Positions 9,049-18,448 of a stretch of DNA of 34,642 bases are shown here, in pieces. Below the pieces are notes generated by a model, which was not told where the DNA came from, did not search any database, and worked only from the letters and a program-made list of their open reading frames with translations. Source of the DNA: Deltaproteobacteria bacterium (lineage in GTDB: Bacteria > Myxococcota_A > UBA796 > GCA-2862545); the NCBI GenBank assembly GCA_011376105.1, contig DRPG01000296.1, positions 1 through 34,642 of the forward strand. The letters run 5' to 3'. Position 1 is the stretch's first letter, and each line of letters begins with the position of its first letter. The position numbers were made by a program, and so were the translations under genes.

Positions 9049-9179
9049 GGACCCTCCTCGTCGCGGCGCCCGGCCCGGCGGGGGGCGAGGTGTGTCCTCA
9101 CCCCCCGGGGATCCAGCGCCGGGGATCGGCGAGCAGGACGCCGGGGCCTCAGGGGGCTACGGGGTTGGACGGAGGCCCT

Positions 9180-10118
9180 GTGCTCACCATCTCCCTCTTC
9201 GCCGCCGCCTGCCGCTCTACGTCTGCGCCCGCGCCCGAGCCCGAGCCCGCGCCCGAGCCCGCGCCCGAGCCCAGCGCCCGGGCGATGCGCTTTGGGATCC
9301 TCGGAGATCAGACCGTGATCCTGCCCGATCCGGAGGGTCGGGTCGTGGTCGTGGAGATGGTGCGATCCATCGACTGGTGACCCTACTGCGTCGCGCAGGT
9401 GCGCGCATGGAAACAGTCGAAGAGCCAGCTCGAGGCCGCCGGCGGGCGGCTGCTGCTGCTGTCGTCCGATCCCCTGGACCAGCTGGAGGTCCTTGTGGCG
9501 AGGCATGGCTTCGAGTCCCTCGACATCGGGCACGCGACCCCCGAGGACTGGGTGAGGTTTGGCGTGACCAACCCCGAGCGCCAGCACCTCCCCCACCCCA
9601 CCACCCTGGTGATCGCCCCCGACGGGGCTGAGCTGATGCGCGCGGTGCACGACAACTACCGGCAGCGCGCCGATCCCGGCCAGGCGATCGCGGTCACCAG
9701 GGCCTGGCGTGCGGGCGCGCCGATCCCCAGTGGGCCTAGGCCCCCCACGCCCCCCTCCGCCCCCGACTGGGAGGCGGCCGCCAGCATCTCGTTGGCCCGC
9801 ACCGGCTCCACCCTCTCCCTCACCGCGGTGATCGCACCTGGCTACCACCTCTATGGTGCGAGCGAGGAGCAGAGCATCCCGCTGTACCTCAGGACCGACT
9901 CGGGCCAGCGGGCCCCGGTACCCGGGGGCACCCGCCGGGACTGGCCCCACGGCACGTCCTGGGTCCTCGAGGACACGGTGGAGCTCAGGCTCGAGGTGCC
10001 CGCAGATCGACCCGTCTCGGGCCAGGTCGGCTGGCAGCTGTGCACTGAGCAGCTGTGCAGCGCCCCCCGAAACGAGCGCTTCTCCCTCGCCCCTGAGGAA
10101 GGACGTGTGATCCGCTGA
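9180..10118 (+). CDS. selenocysteine-containing thioredoxin/AhpC-like lipoprotein fused to a DsbD-alpha-like domain
   Basis: 312 residues from GTG 9180 (GGAGG four bases upstream), reading UGA 9378-9380 as selenocysteine. The N-terminus is a short lipoprotein signal (LFAAAC, Cys11) and a Pro-Glu/Pro-Ala repeat tether. The thioredoxin-fold part begins near residue 37. Its active site reads D-W-U67-P-Y-C70, exactly the DWCPYC motif of AhpC/TSA-like redoxins with the first Cys replaced by UGA. It continues with LLLLSSDPLDQLEVLVARHG and the cis-Pro region HPTTLVI. From about residue 197 a second domain resembles the N-terminal domain of DsbD (APGYHLYGASEEQSIPLYL, then CTEQLC with two cysteines). 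A SECIS-like hairpin follows the UGA. I infer a periplasmic or outer-membrane selenoenzyme that reduces peroxides or disulfides. Reading UGA as a stop would leave a 66-residue stub. Confidence 0.85.
9381..9410 (+). promoter_or_regulatory. candidate bacterial SECIS element of the redox lipoprotein
   Basis: Directly after UGA 9378-9380, bases 9392-9405 form a perfect stem-loop: CGCGC, loop AGGU, GCGCG. A further pair G9390-C9406 forms if U9391 is bulged. The GGU lies 18-20 bases after the UGA; in E. coli fdhF, as I recall it, GGU is 19-21 bases after. A bulged U below a GGU apical loop is the SelB recognition feature. The hairpin is coding (VAQVRA). Confidence 0.75.
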
Positions 10119-10285
10119 TCGGTTGGTTCAGGCGGGATACACCTCCTGGGTTCCCGAGGGCTCGGGGGCAGGGTGGATCCAGATCGAAGCAACACCCCAC
10201 CCCTGACGTCCACCCCCTCTCCCCGCTCCCTGTCCTCCGCGGCAGGGTCTCCACCCTCCCCCAGGAACCTCAACCCGGAGAGCCC

Positions 10286-11371: not shown

Positions 11372-11712
<341 letters not shown>

Positions 11713-12141
11713 GTGTCCACCCCTCTCCCTGGTCATCACCTCAACAGCGAGCTTGAGCTCAGGGCGCTCCTCGACGGCGCAGGGCTGCGCCCCACCGCTC
11801 AGCGCCTGGGGCTGACCGGGCTGCTGTTCGGCGGCGCCCACCGCCACGTCACCGCCGGGGAGCTCCACCTCGAGGCAGCCCACCGGCGGCTGGCTGTGTC
11901 CGTGGCCACGGTGTACAACACCCTGAACCAGCTGGTGGCCACCGGGCTGCTGACCCAGGTCCAGGTCGAGGCCGACTGCACCTACTACGACACCAACACC
12001 GAGCCCCATGGCCACCTGTTCTACACCGACACCGGAGAGCTGGTGGACACCCCCCTGCCCACGATCCCCAGGCCCCTTCAGCTGGAGGGGGTCGAGCTGT
12101 TGAGCGTCGATCTCCTCTTCCGGGTGCGGCGCCGGCGCTGA
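11713..12141 (+). CDS. Fur-family regulator, Irr-like
   Basis: 142 residues from GTG 11713, preferred over TTG 11674 because GGGGG lies just upstream and the domain starts after it. The DNA-binding half has GLRPTAQRLGLTGLLFGGAH and LAVSVATVYNTLNQLVATGL, the Fur recognition helix pattern. The dimerisation half reads TYYDTNTEPHGHLFYTDTGE, close to the TYFDTNxxxHHHF signature of Irr. Canonical Fur CxxC zinc pairs are absent. Irr proteins sense iron through haem and control iron and haem genes in alphaproteobacteria; the usual HHH is here H-G-H. A sulfatase-fold gene begins 19 nt downstream. Assignment to Fur family is firm; Irr versus PerR/Fur is an inference. Confidence 0.85.
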   Translation: MSTPLPGHHLNSELELRALLDGAGLRPTAQRLGLTGLLFGGAHRHVTAGELHLEAAHRRLAVSVATVYNTLNQLVATGLLTQVQVEADCTYYDTNTEPHGHLFYTDTGELVDTPLPTIPRPLQLEGVELLSVDLLFRVRRRR

Positions 12142-12160
12142 TCCCGGGGGGGTGCTGACT

Positions 12161-14029
12161 ATGGGCGCCGTCCGCCGCGCTGTGAGGATCGGGATCGAGC
12201 TGGGGGTGTGCGTCGGGCTCGCCTCGGGGAGCTGGAGCGTCGCCCGGCAGGGGTGGATCCCCCAGGGCCTGTGGCACCTCGCGGCCCGGAGCCTAGCCCA
12301 CGAGCTGGTGCTCTGGGGCGCCCTGATCCCCATGGCGAGCCTCTGCGTGGCCCTGCTGTGGCACGCCAACCACCACCCGGGGCGGCGCGGGGGCCTCGTG
12401 GCCCTCGGGGCTGGGATCGTCCTCGCTGCGGCGCCCCTGTGGGCGATCCTGGGCCGCCTGCGGCCGGGGCTGCGGCTGAGCAGCTATGCAGAGGGGGCGG
12501 GGTTCCCTGTCTTCCTCGGGCGGGTGCTCTCAGAGTCCACGGGCGCGGTGTGGCTGTTGCTGAGCGTCGCGCTCTTCGTCGTCTGGCTCACGGTCCCACC
12601 CCTGCGGGCGCCCACAAAGCTGCGGCGCGTCACCGAAGCCCTCGATCGACCCCAGCTCATCGCGGGGATGGGTGGCCTCGCGGCCCTGTGGGTGATCGGG
12701 GTCGCGGCCGAGCGCACCCTGAGGGTCCCGACCGGTCCCGACGTGGTGGTGATCGTGGTCGACACCCTGCGGGCGGATCACCTCAGCCTGCACGGCCACG
12801 ATCGCCCGACGGATCCAGCCCTGGTGGCCCTCGCCCAGGACGCGATCTGGTACCCGACCGCCCAGGCCCCCGCCCCCTGGACCACCCCGTCGGTGACCGG
12901 GGCGCTGACCGGCCTGCACCCCGCCCGCTTTGGCTTCCGCAGCCGCCCCCTGCGCCTGCCCGATCGCAGCGTCCTGATCCCGGAGCTCCTCCAGGACGCG
13001 GGTTGGAGCACCCACGGGATCGTCTCAAACCTGATCGCGGGCAGCACCGTCGGCTTCGATCAAGGCTTCGACACCTTCGACGAGGGCGACGCCCTCGGTG
13101 AGCAGCACGTCTCCTCGCAGTCCCTGACCGACAAGGCGCTGGCGCGGATCGCGGACGCGGGCCGCAGGCCGATGCTGTTGTGGGTCCACTACTTCGATCC
13201 CCACCTGAGCTTCATGGATCACCCCGAGCTGCCCTGGGCCGGCGCCACCCCCGTCGGCGGCGCACGCTCGGGTATGAGCGCGCCTGAGATCAAGGAGATT
13301 ACCCCGACCCTCACCGACGCTGAGCGGGATCACCTGACCGCGCTGTACGACGAGGAGATCCGCTACACCCTAGATCACATCGATCGCCTGCTCAGGGGCC
13401 TGCGGGCGGCGGGGCGCTACGACGACGCGCTGATCTTGTTCTTCGCCGATCATGGCGAGGCCTTCGCCGAGCGCCCCGACACCCCCTGGATCGGCCACGG
13501 GATCGCCCTGTGGCAGGAGCTGCTGCATGTCCCCCTGATGGTGAAGCTCCCCGGCAACGCCCGCGGGGGCACGGTGGTGGAGCAGCCCGTCGGGCTGTTG
13601 GATCTCGCCCCCACCGTCGCAGCCGCGGTGTCCGTGCCCTGGCCCGGGCCGGTCGATGGGCTGTCCCTGCTACAGCCACAGCTGCCCACCCGGGCGCTGA
13701 TCTCCGAGACCCGCCACCCCGACGCCTGGCTCCGGTCCGCCTTCGACGGTCGTTATAAGCTAGTCAAAGACCTCCAGACCGGGCAGAGCCGGCTCCACGA
13801 TCTGCAGCGCGATCCGATGGAGGAGGAGGACCTGAGGCGGGATCTCCCCGGGCGCCATCAGCAGCTGGCGCGGCTCCTGCACACCTTCGACGCCGGGATC
13901 GGCTCCCCCGGCGCAGCCGACGCGATCTCCTTCAGCGCCGACGACGTCGAGCTGTTGCGTGCGCTGGGCTACGTCGTCGACGAGCCCGGGACCCCACGGG
14001 GCGAGGCCCCGGCGACCTCGGATCCCTGA
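12161..14029 (+). CDS. membrane-anchored sulfatase / alkaline-phosphatase-superfamily enzyme
   Basis: 622 residues from ATG 12161, about eight bases after a G-rich ribosome site; GTG 12152 would add three residues. Around five hydrophobic helices occupy residues 1-190. The catalytic domain starts DVVVIVVDTLRADHLSLHGH with the metal Asp pair. The nucleophile region reads PAPWTTPSVTGALTGLHPAR: the C/S-x-P-S-R motif appears as T-T-P-S-V, so the nucleophile would be Thr, as in LtaS and EptA-type enzymes, and not formylglycine. Further metal ligands are LLWVHYFDPH, LILFFADHGEAFAE and IGHGIALWQELLHVPLMVKL. It probably transfers or hydrolyses phosphate, sulfate or a phospho-headgroup outside the cytoplasm. 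It follows the Irr-like gene closely. Confidence 0.85.
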   Translation: MGAVRRAVRIGIELGVCVGLASGSWSVARQGWIPQGLWHLAARSLAHELVLWGALIPMASLCVALLWHANHHPGRRGGLVALGAGIVLAAAPLWAILGRLRPGLRLSSYAEGAGFPVFLGRVLSESTGAVWLLLSVALFVVWLTVPPLRAPTKLRRVTEALDRPQLIAGMGGLAALWVIGVAAERTLRVPTGPDVVVIVVDTLRADHLSLHGHDRPTDPALVALAQDAIWYPTAQAPAPWTTPSVTGALTGLHPARFGFRSRPLRLPDRSVLIPELLQDAGWSTHGIVSNLIAGSTVGFDQGFDTFDEGDALGEQHVSSQSLTDKALARIADAGRRPMLLWVHYFDPHLSFMDHPELPWAGATPVGGARSGMSAPEIKEITPTLTDAERDHLTALYDEEIRYTLDHIDRLLRGLRAAGRYDDALILFFADHGEAFAERPDTPWIGHGIALWQELLHVPLMVKLPGNARGGTVVEQPVGLLDLAPTVAAAVSVPWPGPVDGLSLLQPQLPTRALISETRHPDAWLRSAFDGRYKLVKDLQTGQSRLHDLQRDPMEEEDLRRDLPGRHQQLARLLHTFDAGIGSPGAADAISFSADDVELLRALGYVVDEPGTPRGEAPATSDP

Positions 14030-14057
14030 TGGGTGTGGCGAGATCCTGGGCGGGGCC

Positions 14058-14074
14058 GATCGTCGGCGACGATC
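14058..14074 (+). terminator. possible hairpin after the sulfatase-fold gene
   Basis: GATCGTC-GGC-GACGATC gives a 7-bp stem 29 bases after the stop at 14029. There is no T-run, so termination function is uncertain; it may be incidental in this GATC-rich DNA. Confidence 0.25.
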
Positions 14075-14195
14075 CGGTGGGCACGGTCCGCGACGCCCAC
14101 AGCCGGATCGACGATCCGATCGCCCCGACCGGGCTCTACGGATCGGGGCCCCACCGCGTCCCCGGGGTGCGATACTGTCCCGCGCAGGAGGCCCC

Positions 14196-15710
14196 ATGGA
14201 GCGCAAGGGCGCACGACGCGAGCGCATCCTCGAGCTGCTCGAGGAGCACGGAGGGCTGCGCGAGGGCGTCGCAGCAGCGATCAGCGCAGAGACCGGGGTG
14301 CCCGAGGCCGACGTCTACGGCGTCGCGACCTTCTACACCCTGGTGTCCCGGCCGGGCGTGGGGGTGCGGATCTGCCAGGGCCTAACCTGCAAGCTCGCAG
14401 GCGCCGACGCCCGCGCGGCCGAGCTGCAGGGGCACGGCGTCGATCACGAGTGGGTCAGCTGCCTGGGCCGGTGCGATCGAGCCCCTGTGGCCCTCGATCC
14501 CGAGCTGGAGCTGATCCCCTGGGGGGCCCGGGGCGCGATCAGCCCCGACGATCCCGAGCTCCCGATGAACCTCGGGGGTGCCGATGACGCGTCGTACCGT
14601 GCCCTGGCCCGGGCCCGGGGGATCGGCGCAGCGCAGGTCATCGAGCAGCTCCGGGCGGCGGGCCTGCAGGGCCGGGGAGGGGCAGGCTTTCCCGCCCACA
14701 TCAAGTGGAGCGCGGTCCGGGGCGAGGCCGATCCGGTCCGGTACGTGGTGGTCAACGCCGACGAGAGCGAGCCGGGCACCTTCAAGGATCGGGAGATCCT
14801 GCTGCGGAGGCCCCACCTGCTGATCGAGGGCGCGGCCATCGCCGCCTGGGTCGTGGGGGCCTCGATCGTGTACGTGTACATCCGCGGGGAGTTCACCGAC
14901 GCACGGCGTAGCCTCGAGGCCGCGCTGGAGGCCGCAGCACCCCACCTCGACGGGATCGAGATCCGGATCGTGGCGGGCCACGGTGCCTACATCTGCGGCG
15001 AGGAGACGGCGCTGCTCGAGGCCATCGAGGGCCGCCGCGGCATGCCGCGGCTCAAGCCCCCCTACCCCACCCGGTCGGGCCTGTGGGGCAAGCCCACCCT
15101 GATGAACAACGTCGAGACCCTGGCCTGTGTCCCCTCGATCCTGCTCCGGGGCGGCGACTGGTTCCAGTCCTGGGGCCGTGACGAGCCCGGGTCCAAGCTG
15201 TACTGCCTGTCGGGCCACGTGGCGCGGCCCGGGGTCTACGAGCTCCCCCTCGGCGTCACCCTGGACGAGCTGGTGGAGGCCGGCGGAGGCTATGTTGGCA
15301 CCCCCAGGGCGTTCTCGCCGGGCGGGGCCGCGTCGGGGTTTCTGCCGATCTCCGAGCGCTCGCGGCCGCTGGACATGGGTGGGCTGGCCGCCGCGGGCTC
15401 GATGCTCGGCTCAGCGGGGGTGGTCGTCCTCAACGACACCGTCGACATGGCTCAGGCCGCCCGCTGGCAGGCGATCTTCTTCCAGGACGAGAGCTGCGGC
15501 CAGTGCGCGCCCTGCCGGATCGGCTGCTCGCTGCAGCGGCGCTCCCTCGATCGCTGGATCGACGATCGCGATCCGGCGACGCTACAGCACGTCGAGGAGA
15601 TCCACTGGGAGATGGAGGAGGGCTCCATCTGCGGGCTGGGCATGACCGCGAGTCTGCCGCTGGTCACGGCGATGCGTCACTTCCCCGAGGACTTCAGGAG
15701 CCAGCGATGA
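14196..15710 (+). CDS. NuoE-NuoF fusion, NADH-side subunit of formate dehydrogenase
   Basis: 504 residues from ATG 14196 with AGGAGG five bases upstream. Residues 1-115 are a NuoE/thioredoxin-like domain with the [2Fe-2S] ligands CQGLTC (60, 65) and CLGRC (89, 93). From about residue 150 a NuoF domain carries the FMN/NADH sites GRGGAGFPAHIKW and HGAYICGEETALLEA, an SLBB-like middle (GVYELPLGVTLDELVEAGGG), and the 4Fe-4S ligands ESCGQCAPCRIGC with the fourth Cys in SICGLG. NuoF and NuoE are usually separate in complex I; fused forms occur in soluble hydrogenase and formate dehydrogenase diaphorase modules. Its stop overlaps the start of the alpha subunit as ATGA (15707-15710). It moves electrons between formate-derived clusters and NAD(P). 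Confidence 0.9.
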   Translation: MERKGARRERILELLEEHGGLREGVAAAISAETGVPEADVYGVATFYTLVSRPGVGVRICQGLTCKLAGADARAAELQGHGVDHEWVSCLGRCDRAPVALDPELELIPWGARGAISPDDPELPMNLGGADDASYRALARARGIGAAQVIEQLRAAGLQGRGGAGFPAHIKWSAVRGEADPVRYVVVNADESEPGTFKDREILLRRPHLLIEGAAIAAWVVGASIVYVYIRGEFTDARRSLEAALEAAAPHLDGIEIRIVAGHGAYICGEETALLEAIEGRRGMPRLKPPYPTRSGLWGKPTLMNNVETLACVPSILLRGGDWFQSWGRDEPGSKLYCLSGHVARPGVYELPLGVTLDELVEAGGGYVGTPRAFSPGGAASGFLPISERSRPLDMGGLAAAGSMLGSAGVVVLNDTVDMAQAARWQAIFFQDESCGQCAPCRIGCSLQRRSLDRWIDDRDPATLQHVEEIHWEMEEGSICGLGMTASLPLVTAMRHFPEDFRSQR

Positions 15711-18448
15711 GCCAGAGCGTCCGGATCACCGTCGACGGCGTCGAGGTCCAGGTCGAGCCCGGGGCCACGGTGCTGACCGCCGCCACCACGGCGGGGATCG
15801 CGGTGCCCACCCTGTGCCACGAGGCCAGGGTCGATCCCATGGGCTCGTGCCGCATGTGCCTGGTGGAGATCGAGGGCCAGCGGCGGCTACAGCCCAGCTG
15901 TGCCTTCCCCGCCTCCGACGGCATGGTGGTGCACACCGACAGCGGGCGGGTCAGGCGACACCGCCGGGTGCTGCTGTCGATGTACCTCGCCGATCACGAG
16001 CTCGACGAAGATGGCCTGCCCAAGGAGCGGGGCACCGGCAACCGTCTCCGGCAGCACGTGCTGGAACATGGCACCGGCCCCACCCTGCCTCCGATCGCAG
16101 CCGATCGGTCCTACCGCGAAGACGACAACCCCTACGTACACTTCGATCCAGAGGCCTGCATCCTGTGCAACCTCTGCGTGCGCTACTGTGACGAGGTCGA
16201 GGCGGTCTCGGCGATCACGCTGGCGAACCGGGGCTCGCACACCACGATCGCCACCGCGGATCAACGCTCGCTGCTCGACACCTCCTGTGAGCTGTGTGGA
16301 GGCTGCATCGCGGTGTGTCCCACCGGCGCGATGACCGAGCGCCCCGCCCTGGGGCTCGACTGGCGGCGCGAGGAGAAGATCCGCACCACCTGTAACTTCT
16401 GCGGGGTCGGCTGCCAGCTCGATCTCCACGTCGCAGACGATCGGATCGTGCGGATCACCTCGCCGGAGCCGGGTCGGACCGTCAACGACGGGAACCTGTG
16501 CGTCAAGGGGCGGTTCGCCTACGAGTTCGTCCACCACGACGATCGGCTGACCACTCCCCTGATCCGGGGCGGAGACGGTGAGCTGCGCCCCGCGAGCTGG
16601 CCCGAGGCGCTGGCCGCCGCCGCCGCCGGCCTGCTGGGGGTCAAGGAGCGCCACGGCGCAGATGCGCTGGGCTTCGTCAGCTCCAGCCGCTGCACCGGGG
16701 AGGAGAACTACCTCGTCCAGAAGCTCGCCAGAGCCGCGTTCGGCACCAACAACTGCCACCAGTGTGCGGCCACTTGACACGCGCCGACGGTCGCCGGTCT
16801 GGTGACCATGTTTGGAGCAGGCGCGATGACGAACTCGATCCCCGAGATCCGGGACACGGATCTGATGTTCGTGATCGGGTCGAACACCACCGAGGCTCAC
16901 CCCATCATCGCGATGGAGATGAAGCGCGCGGTGCGGCGTGGTGCGAGGCTGATCGTCGCTGATCCCCGGGCCATCTGGCTGTCGGAGATCGCCGATCTGC
17001 ACCTGCAGCTCAAGCCCGGCACCGACGTCGCGCTGCTGCTGGCGATGTCCCACGTGATCATCGCCGAGGATCTCGTGGATCACGCGTTCATCGACACCCA
17101 CACCGAGGACTTCGGGGCGGTGGTGGAGGCCAGCCGGGACGCGACGCCACAGTGGGCTGAGACGATCACCGGCGTCGCCGCGGACGACATCCGCACCGCC
17201 GCCCGGTGGTACGCCACCACCGAGCGGGCGGGCATCTACTACACCCTGGGGATCACCGAGCACACCCACGGCACCGACAACGTCTACGGGCTGGCCAACC
17301 TGGTGCTGATGACGGGTCACCTCGGCAGGCACGCAGCGGGCATGAACCCCCTGCGGGGCCAGAACAACGTGCAGGGAGCGAACGACGCAGGCGCGAGCCC
17401 GGTGTTCTACCCAGGCTACCAGCGGGTCACCGATCCGGAGGCCAGGGCCCGGTTCGAGGACGCCTGGGGGGTGTCCCTGCCCCCGGAGGAGGGGCTGAAC
17501 CTCAACGTGATGATGAAGGAGATGGCCCGGGGGCGGATCAAGGGCCTGTACGTCGTCGGAGAGGACCTCGTGCTGTCCGAGCCCAACGCCACCGAGGTCG
17601 AGCGTGGGCTGAACCAGTGCGAGTTCGTGGTGCTCCAGGACATCTTCCTCAACGAGACCGCGCGGTTTGCCGACGTGATCCTGCCCGCGGCCTGCTTCGC
17701 TGAGAAAGACGGCGTGTTCACCAACTCGGATCGCCGGGTGCAGCGGGTGCGCAGGGCCGTCTCCCCCCCCGGAGAGGCCCGCGCAGACTGGGAGATCCTC
17801 TGCGATCTGGCGCGGGCGGTGGGCTACCCGATGCCCGACTACGCCAGCCCTGCTGAGATCTACGCAGAGATGGCGGCGCTGTCCGACAAGTTCTCCGGGA
17901 TCAGCCACGCCCGGATCGACGCTGAGGGGGGCCTGCAGTGGCCCTGCCCCACCCCCGATCACCCCGGCACCCCCACCCTGCACGGCGACGGGCCGATCCG
18001 GGGCAAGGGCGTGTTCCAGGCCATCGCCTACCGCCCCAGCGACGAGCTCCCCGACGAGGACTACCCGCTGCTGCTGTCCACCGGCCGCACCTTGTACCAC
18101 TACAACGCCGGCACCCAGACCCGCAGGGCCTCGGGACCGATGTCCAAGCAGCGGGGGAACTTCATCGAGATGCATAGGCGCGACGCCAAGATCCGCGGCC
18201 TGAGCGACGGTGATCGCGTCCGGGTCAGCTCCCGCCGGGGCGAGATCGAGGCGATCGTGTGGATCAGCCCCAGGATGCGGCGGGGCTGTGTCTGGATGCC
18301 GCTGCACTTCCCCGAGTCCCCGACCAACCTGCTCACCAACGACGCAGGCGACAAGATCACCGGCACCGGGGAGTACAAGGTCTGTGCCGTCACCCTAAGC
18401 CCGGTGGAGGGCCCGGGCCTCGAGGCCGAAGCCCCCGCGGCCTGCTGA
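15707..18448 (+). CDS. fdhF: selenocysteine formate dehydrogenase alpha subunit (NAD-linked type)
   Basis: 913 residues when UGA 16775-16777 is read as selenocysteine (residue 357). The N-terminus is a NuoG-like module: [2Fe-2S] with C37, C48, C51, C65; then two 4Fe-4S motifs, CILCNLCVRYC and CELCGGCIAVC. The molybdopterin domain opens with its own cluster (TTCNFCGVGC and NLCVKGRF). The active site reads C-A-A-T-U-H-A-P-T-V-A-G-L, matching E. coli FdhH VUHGPSVAGL, with the essential His next to Sec. The conserved Arg lies in NPLRGQNNVQG. The C-terminal domain (LLSTGRTLYHYNAGTQTRRA) ligates the cofactor. It oxidises formate to CO2, or reduces CO2, at Mo or W and passes electrons to the NuoE-NuoF partner. 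The His/Cys3 cluster motif expected after the 2Fe-2S domain lacks its cysteines. No fdhD is visible. Confidence 0.95.
16778..16810 (+). promoter_or_regulatory. SECIS element of the formate dehydrogenase gene
   Basis: Bases 16789-16807 fold as GGUC-G-CC, loop GGUCU, GG-U-GACC, a seven-pair stem including one G-U. The GGU is 19-21 bases after the UGA. As I recall the E. coli fdhF element, position and loop (GGUCU) match it. This supports SelB-dependent decoding. Confidence 0.85.

Follow-up and report, generated by a model that had tools for sequence, protein, structure and literature searches.

Does an in-frame UGA codon within a gene for a two-domain redox protein specify selenocysteine (Sec) and, if so, what could the resulting protein do in the cell envelope? 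This question is raised by positions 9180–10118 (+) of a stretch of 34,642 nucleotides from an environmental bacterium, which is referred to in its full length as the window. A first-pass annotation, made from the sequence alone, had described one frame broken only by UGA 9378–9380, and this description holds: translation gives a protein of 312 residues with the TGA at residue 67 as its sole internal stop (the terminal stop is also TGA), and a simple codon-usage gene caller, which had learned from long frames in the window and in five homologous loci, called 9180–9380 and 9381–10118 both as coding in one shared frame. A likely ribosome-binding site, read from the sequence, lies 4 nt upstream of the GTG at 9180 (GGAGG, 9171–9175, +). 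The UGA falls on the place of the first Cys in a W-C-P-Y-C motif, with D-W-U-P-Y-C matching exactly and the U-P-Y-C redox motif, seen in translation and alignment, covering 9378–9389 (+); the redoxin sequence also runs on unshifted past this codon as had been claimed, with an AhpC-TSA match to residues 43–149 (9306–9626, +; E 9e-8, 32.5 bits against a Pfam cut-off of 26) spanning residue 67. This Prx-like domain is preceded by a tether rich in Pro, Glu and Ala (9213–9287, +), noted earlier as a Pro/Glu tether, and is followed by the anticipated DsbD N-terminal-like domain: residues 198–304 (9771–10091, +) match DsbD_N (PF11412), the Ig-fold alpha domain of DsbD, with E 6e-9 and 36.4 bits against a Pfam cut-off of 25. 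Within this domain, C-T-E-Q-L-C (residues 288–293; 10041–10058, +) forms a C-x4-C motif, in which C288 and C293 are the presumed redox pair and both Cys are invariant in all five fused members of the window clade. A full-length DsbD is excluded, as AhpC-TSA and DsbD_N were the only domains found in the window protein at E 0.01, with neither a transmembrane (TM) nor a gamma domain.

A predicted structure and its PDB matches support the fold assigned to each domain. An AlphaFold2 model based on 49 aligned rows has a mean pLDDT of 89.2 and a pTM of 0.63, the latter value leaving the relative placing of the two domains uncertain. U67, modelled as Cys, is predicted directly before helix 68–86, which is the expected active site of a thioredoxin fold. 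Foldseek matched the model to peroxiredoxins and thiol peroxidases (5ovq, 3hjp, 1psq), to a ResA-like Bacillus thiol-disulfide oxidoreductase (4nmu) and to solved nDsbD structures of Neisseria and E. coli (6dps, 1l6p); a sequence search of the PDB gave nothing useful. The window protein matched no NCBIfam model at E 0.01, and at E 0.1 only DsbD (NF001419, E 0.014).

Were the TGA a true stop, the locus would hold a decayed or split gene in two pieces, or a sequencing error. The in-frame TGA itself speaks for such a reading, as does the presence of a GTG that opens the downstream piece (9399–10118); against it, a start at this site would, judged from the model, sever the thioredoxin fold behind its active site, and codon bias and domain scores are kept in both halves. 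Homologues bear on the same point. Matches at E 0.001 were found in 19 of 93 related genomes, and a profile of five fused proteins gave matches at E 1e-10 in 12 of 71 genomes of the class and 86 of 377 genomes of the phylum; all phylum-search matches listed were taken, loci from L020 onward were re-searched at E 1e-6 and 16 duplicate loci were removed. In the 140 aligned rows, of which the window is one, the Sec column holds U 129 times, Cys 10 times and Thr once; five more rows, from four DsbD_N proteins that stand alone and from the second L099 piece, are gapped there. The predicted conservation of Cys or Sec at residue 67 is thus seen in 139 of the 140 rows. The profile scores Sec as Cys and so should not favour U, while all five rows used to build it carry TGA and so it favours their kin. 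The remaining four fused members of the window clade (L021, L022, L023 and L025) all keep TGA at the Sec place, and the recurrence of TGA there in independent genomes makes a sequencing slip unlikely. We consider a true stop very improbable.

Some genetic codes assign UGA to Trp or Gly, which counts in favour of decoding by such a code, or of unspecific readthrough. In opposition to this, TGA is also the terminal stop of the gene, 10 of the 11 rows from relatives lacking the in-frame TGA have Cys at the aligned place, and the genome combines a full Sec machinery with synonymous conservation just past the UGA, as described below. The source genome (6.7 Mb in 766 contigs, 80.7% complete) was searched for selA, selB, selC and selD, the check that the first-pass annotation had proposed, and all four are present: tRNA-Sec (63.1 bits; anticodon TCA as read by ARAGORN), selB (290.5 bits), selA (475.5 bits) and selD (366.9 bits), each scoring over its cut-off. 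The selD gene (L018, 948–1898, −) has an in-frame TGA of its own (CAGUASK), and SelD of this genome appears to be a selenoprotein itself. Across the phylum, selA was detected at E 1e-50 in 241 of 377 genomes overall versus 73 of the 74 genomes with a U row, although the genomes are related and a Fisher test overstates the significance of this co-occurrence. The sole U-row genome without a selA match is G223, which is 85% complete and has three U rows; among genomes having Cys rows only, the phylum search found selA in four of seven. Decoding other than as Sec appears to us even less credible than a true stop. Pseudogene, sequencing slip and alternative code were all rejected on the grounds of the conserved TGA, the codon bias, the terminal TGA and the Sec machinery. 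Assignment of UGA 9378–9380 (+) as the codon for U67 is supported by the alignment, by this machinery and by a putative SECIS hairpin that follows the codon within the gene.

In bacteria, the SECIS element is located after the UGA, and the rule given in the accessible part of PMC13188914 calls for a loop of 3–9 nt with a G among its first two bases, a distance of 16–37 nt and a minimum free energy at or below −7.5. The DNA just 3' of the UGA (CCCTACTGCGTCGCGCAGGTGCGC in the window) is nearly identical across the window clade (clade A) and contains a candidate hairpin at 9389–9409 (+), whose apical loop AGGU (9397–9400) lies 16 nt past the UGA; within clade A, the loop reads AGUU in L021. The hairpin of the single-domain relative L028 has different paired bases from the window clade and a 5-nt loop. 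The window conforms to the rule with −10.8 kcal/mol, as do 127 of 129 U rows and 4 of 10 Cys rows in a scan covering distances of 16–24. When the rule was applied to a control stretch lying 60 nt farther downstream in these genes, 22 of the 129 U rows and 4 of the 10 Cys rows passed, and synonymous shuffles pass at rates of 52–76% in the four U groups (clade A 76%) and 23% in the Cys rows: the rule is weak in DNA this rich in GC. Of 60 synonymous shuffles, 9 equalled the window hairpin; no more than 3 of 60 were as good for 34 of 129 U rows (A 1/6, B 20/36, C 8/78, D 5/9) and for none of the 10 Cys rows. Unconstrained folding was no better than shuffles, with z scores of 0.38 (9378–9428), 1.22 (9378–9440) and −1.10 (9372–9422). 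Third-base conservation is the stronger test, in which the agreement of third bases was counted at fourfold codons shared by sequence pairs, the pairs not being independent. In clade A (six rows), third bases agree in 45 of 55 comparisons over codons +3 to +9, whereas the remainder of the N-domain gives 219 of 495 and DsbD_N gives 104 of 248. The corresponding values for clade B (35 rows) are 1298 of 1556 for the SECIS codons, 10409 of 22959 and 11967 of 27633. The case for the hairpin is comparative, and on this ground the SECIS-like hairpin of the first-pass annotation can be retained in its in-gene form right after the UGA; the stretch beyond the final stop was also tried as a SECIS and rejected, since its folding is ordinary (10119–10190, z −0.33) and bacterial SECIS elements follow the UGA (accessible part of PMC13188914).

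The homologues fall into several groups. Clade A comprises five fused proteins (window, L021, L022, L023 and L025, the latter four being 31–40% identical to the window protein) and L024, an exported single-domain UPYC relative without nDsbD, whose frame ends at a TGA read here as its stop. Clade B (36 rows in 31 genomes, for example L035, L054, L074 and L086) carries W-U-P-P-C and is fused to DsbD_N with a C-terminal extension; both Cys columns of the DsbD domain hold Cys in 32 of the 36 rows in the profile alignment. The starts of L035 and L086 read MT(I/V)ERD, and no signal peptide is seen in these two starts, which is odd for a DsbD_N domain. A tree built from 139 N-domains places A (including L024) and B in distinct clades with SH-aLRT values of 99 each, although this tree was quick and unfinished and its long branches meet, so that two origins of the fusion are unproven by it. 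Group C consists of single-domain rows, mostly H-W-U-P-Y-C; three proteins of this single-domain type (L028, L031 and L032) have hydrophobic N-termini that, by eye, are probably membrane-spanning. Group D comprises nine U-x-x-T rows (L158, L159, L162, L163, L165, L167, L171, L174 and L176), in which the motif is mostly V-D-W-U-P-F-T, i.e. without a resolving Cys in the motif. One of the ten Cys rows is fused: L141 shows W-C-P-Y-C together with C-x4-C and stems from genome G348, which gave no selA match. This protein is a natural Cys counterpart of the Sec fusion. The 49-row alignment A4 (five fused clade A rows, 35 of the 36 clade B rows, L141 and eight single-domain rows) matched AhpC-TSA in all 49 rows and DsbD_N in 41, a count that equals the number of fused rows without the rows being itemised. 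Clade A itself looks rare: the exact TGA-bearing pattern hit five contigs among the genomes of 84,980 species, seemingly those of L021–L025, in a scan from which contigs under 3 kb are absent and the source genome possibly so. Back-translated patterns across the Sec place matched no contig, probably since such patterns cannot match TGA, and a plasmid collection gave one weak single-domain match only.

The location of the protein has to be judged largely through these relatives. In the window, a short hydrophobic N-terminus (9180–9212, +) leads to Cys11 and could be a lipoprotein signal, albeit an atypical one as the GTG start leaves just 10 residues ahead of the Cys, none of them positively charged. 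Ordinary lipoprotein signals are visible by eye in L021, L022, L023 and L024, while L025 has a hydrophobic start without a lipobox Cys. The lipoprotein signal proposed in the first-pass annotation is thus seen by eye in ordinary form in four homologues, while the window itself has a possible signal in atypically short, uncharged form; of the lipid-anchored periplasmic selenoenzyme proposed there, the Sec part is supported by the conserved TGA and the machinery and the lipid anchor draws mainly on the homologues. The fused protein is probably exported and lipid-anchored, and the bacterium appears to read a stop codon as Sec in a fused protein that is probably periplasmic.

In order to place such a protein in an electron pathway, the rest of the genome was considered. 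One further DsbD_N protein runs off the start of contig C102, and a protein with DsbD_TM and a thioredoxin-like domain enters at the start of contig C412; the same Gly-Ala-Ala repeat occurs at the ends of both pieces (L185, 1–1203, −; L187, 1–1377, +), which suggests that a single DsbD gene of the alpha-TM-gamma type was broken in two by the assembly. No support comes from gene order, as a scan of 18 neighbouring proteins (ten around the window gene and the L021–L025 homologues, the others further along the window, together a subset of all neighbours) found no DsbD/Dsb, thioredoxin-like redox or Sec gene. Further along, window positions 11674–18448 hold a FUR regulator and a sulfatase, followed in a row by NADH-dehydrogenase/hydrogenase-like genes, including a Nuo51 with 2Fe-2S and an Fe-S/molybdopterin oxidoreductase in two pieces (15707–16777 and 16802–18448). 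By eye, no adjoining thioredoxin-like gene was recognised at the standalone DsbD_N loci L026, L029, L030 and L050, and a TlpA-like lipoprotein with W-C-E-P-C (1420–2214, −) lies near the single-domain UPYC gene of L027.

Sec usually sits where the substrate is met. Given this tendency, and the existence of the single-domain exported relative L024, nDsbD is favoured as the donor: we lean slightly towards a reduction of the U-domain by the fused nDsbD. In such a scheme, a DsbD-type transporter would bring cytoplasmic electrons to the periplasm, where the fused nDsbD would take them up and hand them on to U67-C70 in its oxidised selenenylsulfide form, just as nDsbD serves the thioredoxin-fold proteins DsbC, CcmG and DsbG; the selenolate of U67 would then reduce a substrate in the envelope, whether a (hydro)peroxide or a protein disulfide, and C70 would resolve. 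The fusion would hold donor and acceptor together, such that a fast selenoenzyme is not limited by partner finding. A thioredoxin-fold Sec domain next to nDsbD fits the E. coli nDsbD interface in either direction, and the opposite flow can also be drawn, with the UPYC domain as a stand-in for DsbD gamma that receives electrons from a membrane transporter and hands them through the fused nDsbD to several periplasmic clients. The pairing of a thioredoxin fold with nDsbD is the same as in E. coli, where, according to the accessible part of PMC7347389, nDsbD receives electrons from the thioredoxin-fold gamma domain and the Ig-fold alpha domain passes them on to DsbC, CcmG and DsbG. Nevertheless, the source genome seems already to hold an alpha-TM-gamma DsbD, in two pieces, and the exported L024 without nDsbD suggests that a U domain can act on a substrate alone; we hold this opposite flow to be unlikely, and any other mechanism somewhat less likely again.

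For the preferred reading, with nDsbD as donor, the substrate is somewhat more probably a protein disulfide than a peroxide. A protein that serves mainly as a Sec peroxidase of the periplasm, with nDsbD built in as its reductant, is a tentative alternative: in the PDB, the N-domain is matched best by peroxiredoxins and thiol peroxidases, its Pfam match is AhpC-TSA, and a route from the DsbD-like ScsB through TlpA to a peroxiredoxin has reportedly been described in the Caulobacter envelope. On the other hand, ResA-like thiol-disulfide oxidoreductases match too (4nmu), the motif is UxxC, in which Sec occupies the position of the Thr, and the peroxiredoxin motif PxxxTxx(C/U), as given in the accessible part of PMC13188914, is absent from the window protein, which reads R-S-I-D-W-U-P-Y-C here.

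Taken together, the locus very probably encodes a genuine selenoprotein in which a Prx-like UxxC oxidoreductase is joined to a DsbD-alpha domain, and we assign a probability of roughly 0.8 to the reading as a whole, namely an exported, probably lipid-anchored selenoprotein with two redox domains that would work by the nDsbD-donor mechanism. At even odds, the picture may be widened to an envelope reductase selenoenzyme wired into the DsbD pathway with its own nDsbD donor and with a parallel WUPPC clade in the phylum, the pairing being either favoured at least twice or ancestral and the sampled family nearly all Sec. If true, Sec catalysis and DsbD-driven envelope reduction would be joined in one chain; this would point directly to what reduces a Sec family that is otherwise an orphan, and would make it possible to test why an oxidising envelope employs Sec. 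With UGA in 129 of 140 aligned rows, standard gene callers could cut such genes at this codon.

As the first-pass annotation had stated, Sec in UxxC proteins of PF00578 is already known (accessible parts of PMC13188914, PMC9312934 and PMC2398784): Prx-like thiol:disulfide oxidoreductases with PF00578 and UxxC/UxxU are listed in Table 1 of PMC13188914, and "Prx-like 1" with UxxC in the ocean survey (accessible part of PMC2398784). The pairing with DsbD_N, which that annotation did not list as a described selenoprotein, was likewise not found described in the accessible open-access literature searched, supplements excepted; Table 1 of PMC13188914 gives one domain per family, and such a fusion could hide there under "Prx-like thiol:disulfide oxidoreductase" or "Redoxin family protein". 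Judged from the sequences and from that part of the literature, the fusion is a new architecture whose single-domain Sec relatives are already known. The ocean survey does contain a fusion, "Prx-like 3/Unknown_3", in which a Prx-like Sec domain is accompanied by an additional domain that bears Cys (accessible part of PMC2398784); Unknown_3 has CxxC and is not called DsbD there, which sets it apart from DsbD_N by description, although the two may be identical. TsoB, a rhodanese/DsbD fusion-like selenoprotein (NF045694, Table 1 of PMC13188914), resembles the window protein in being a selenoprotein named as a DsbD-like fusion, but differs in its listed partner, rhodanese, and in its Sec motif, UxxxxU: in the window protein, Sec lies in the thioredoxin-fold domain and the DsbD domain holds Cys only, and NF045694 is absent both from the NCBIfam matches of the window protein (E 0.1) and from the family list of A4. 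The SelL-related redox proteins (NF040769) are matched by 42 of the 49 A4 rows at E 0.01 or better, a threshold used in place of the curated cut-off, and not by the window protein at E 0.1. Compared with the alpha domain of DsbD/ScsB, the window protein shares the DsbD_N match, the paired Cys and the PDB matches 6dps and 1l6p, and lacks TM and gamma domains in its chain; its Cys pair is C-x4-C as opposed to C103/C109 in E. coli DsbD, and where the E. coli cap loop (residues 68–72) ends in E-F-Y-G (accessible part of PMC7347389), the window reads, by eye, Y-H-L-Y-G without the Phe. With the Prx-like PF00578 selenoproteins, whose defining features it shows (PF00578 over its cut-off and UxxC), the window protein has in common the AhpC-TSA domain and Sec as the first residue of UxxC, and it differs from them in its fusion to DsbD_N and its probable export.
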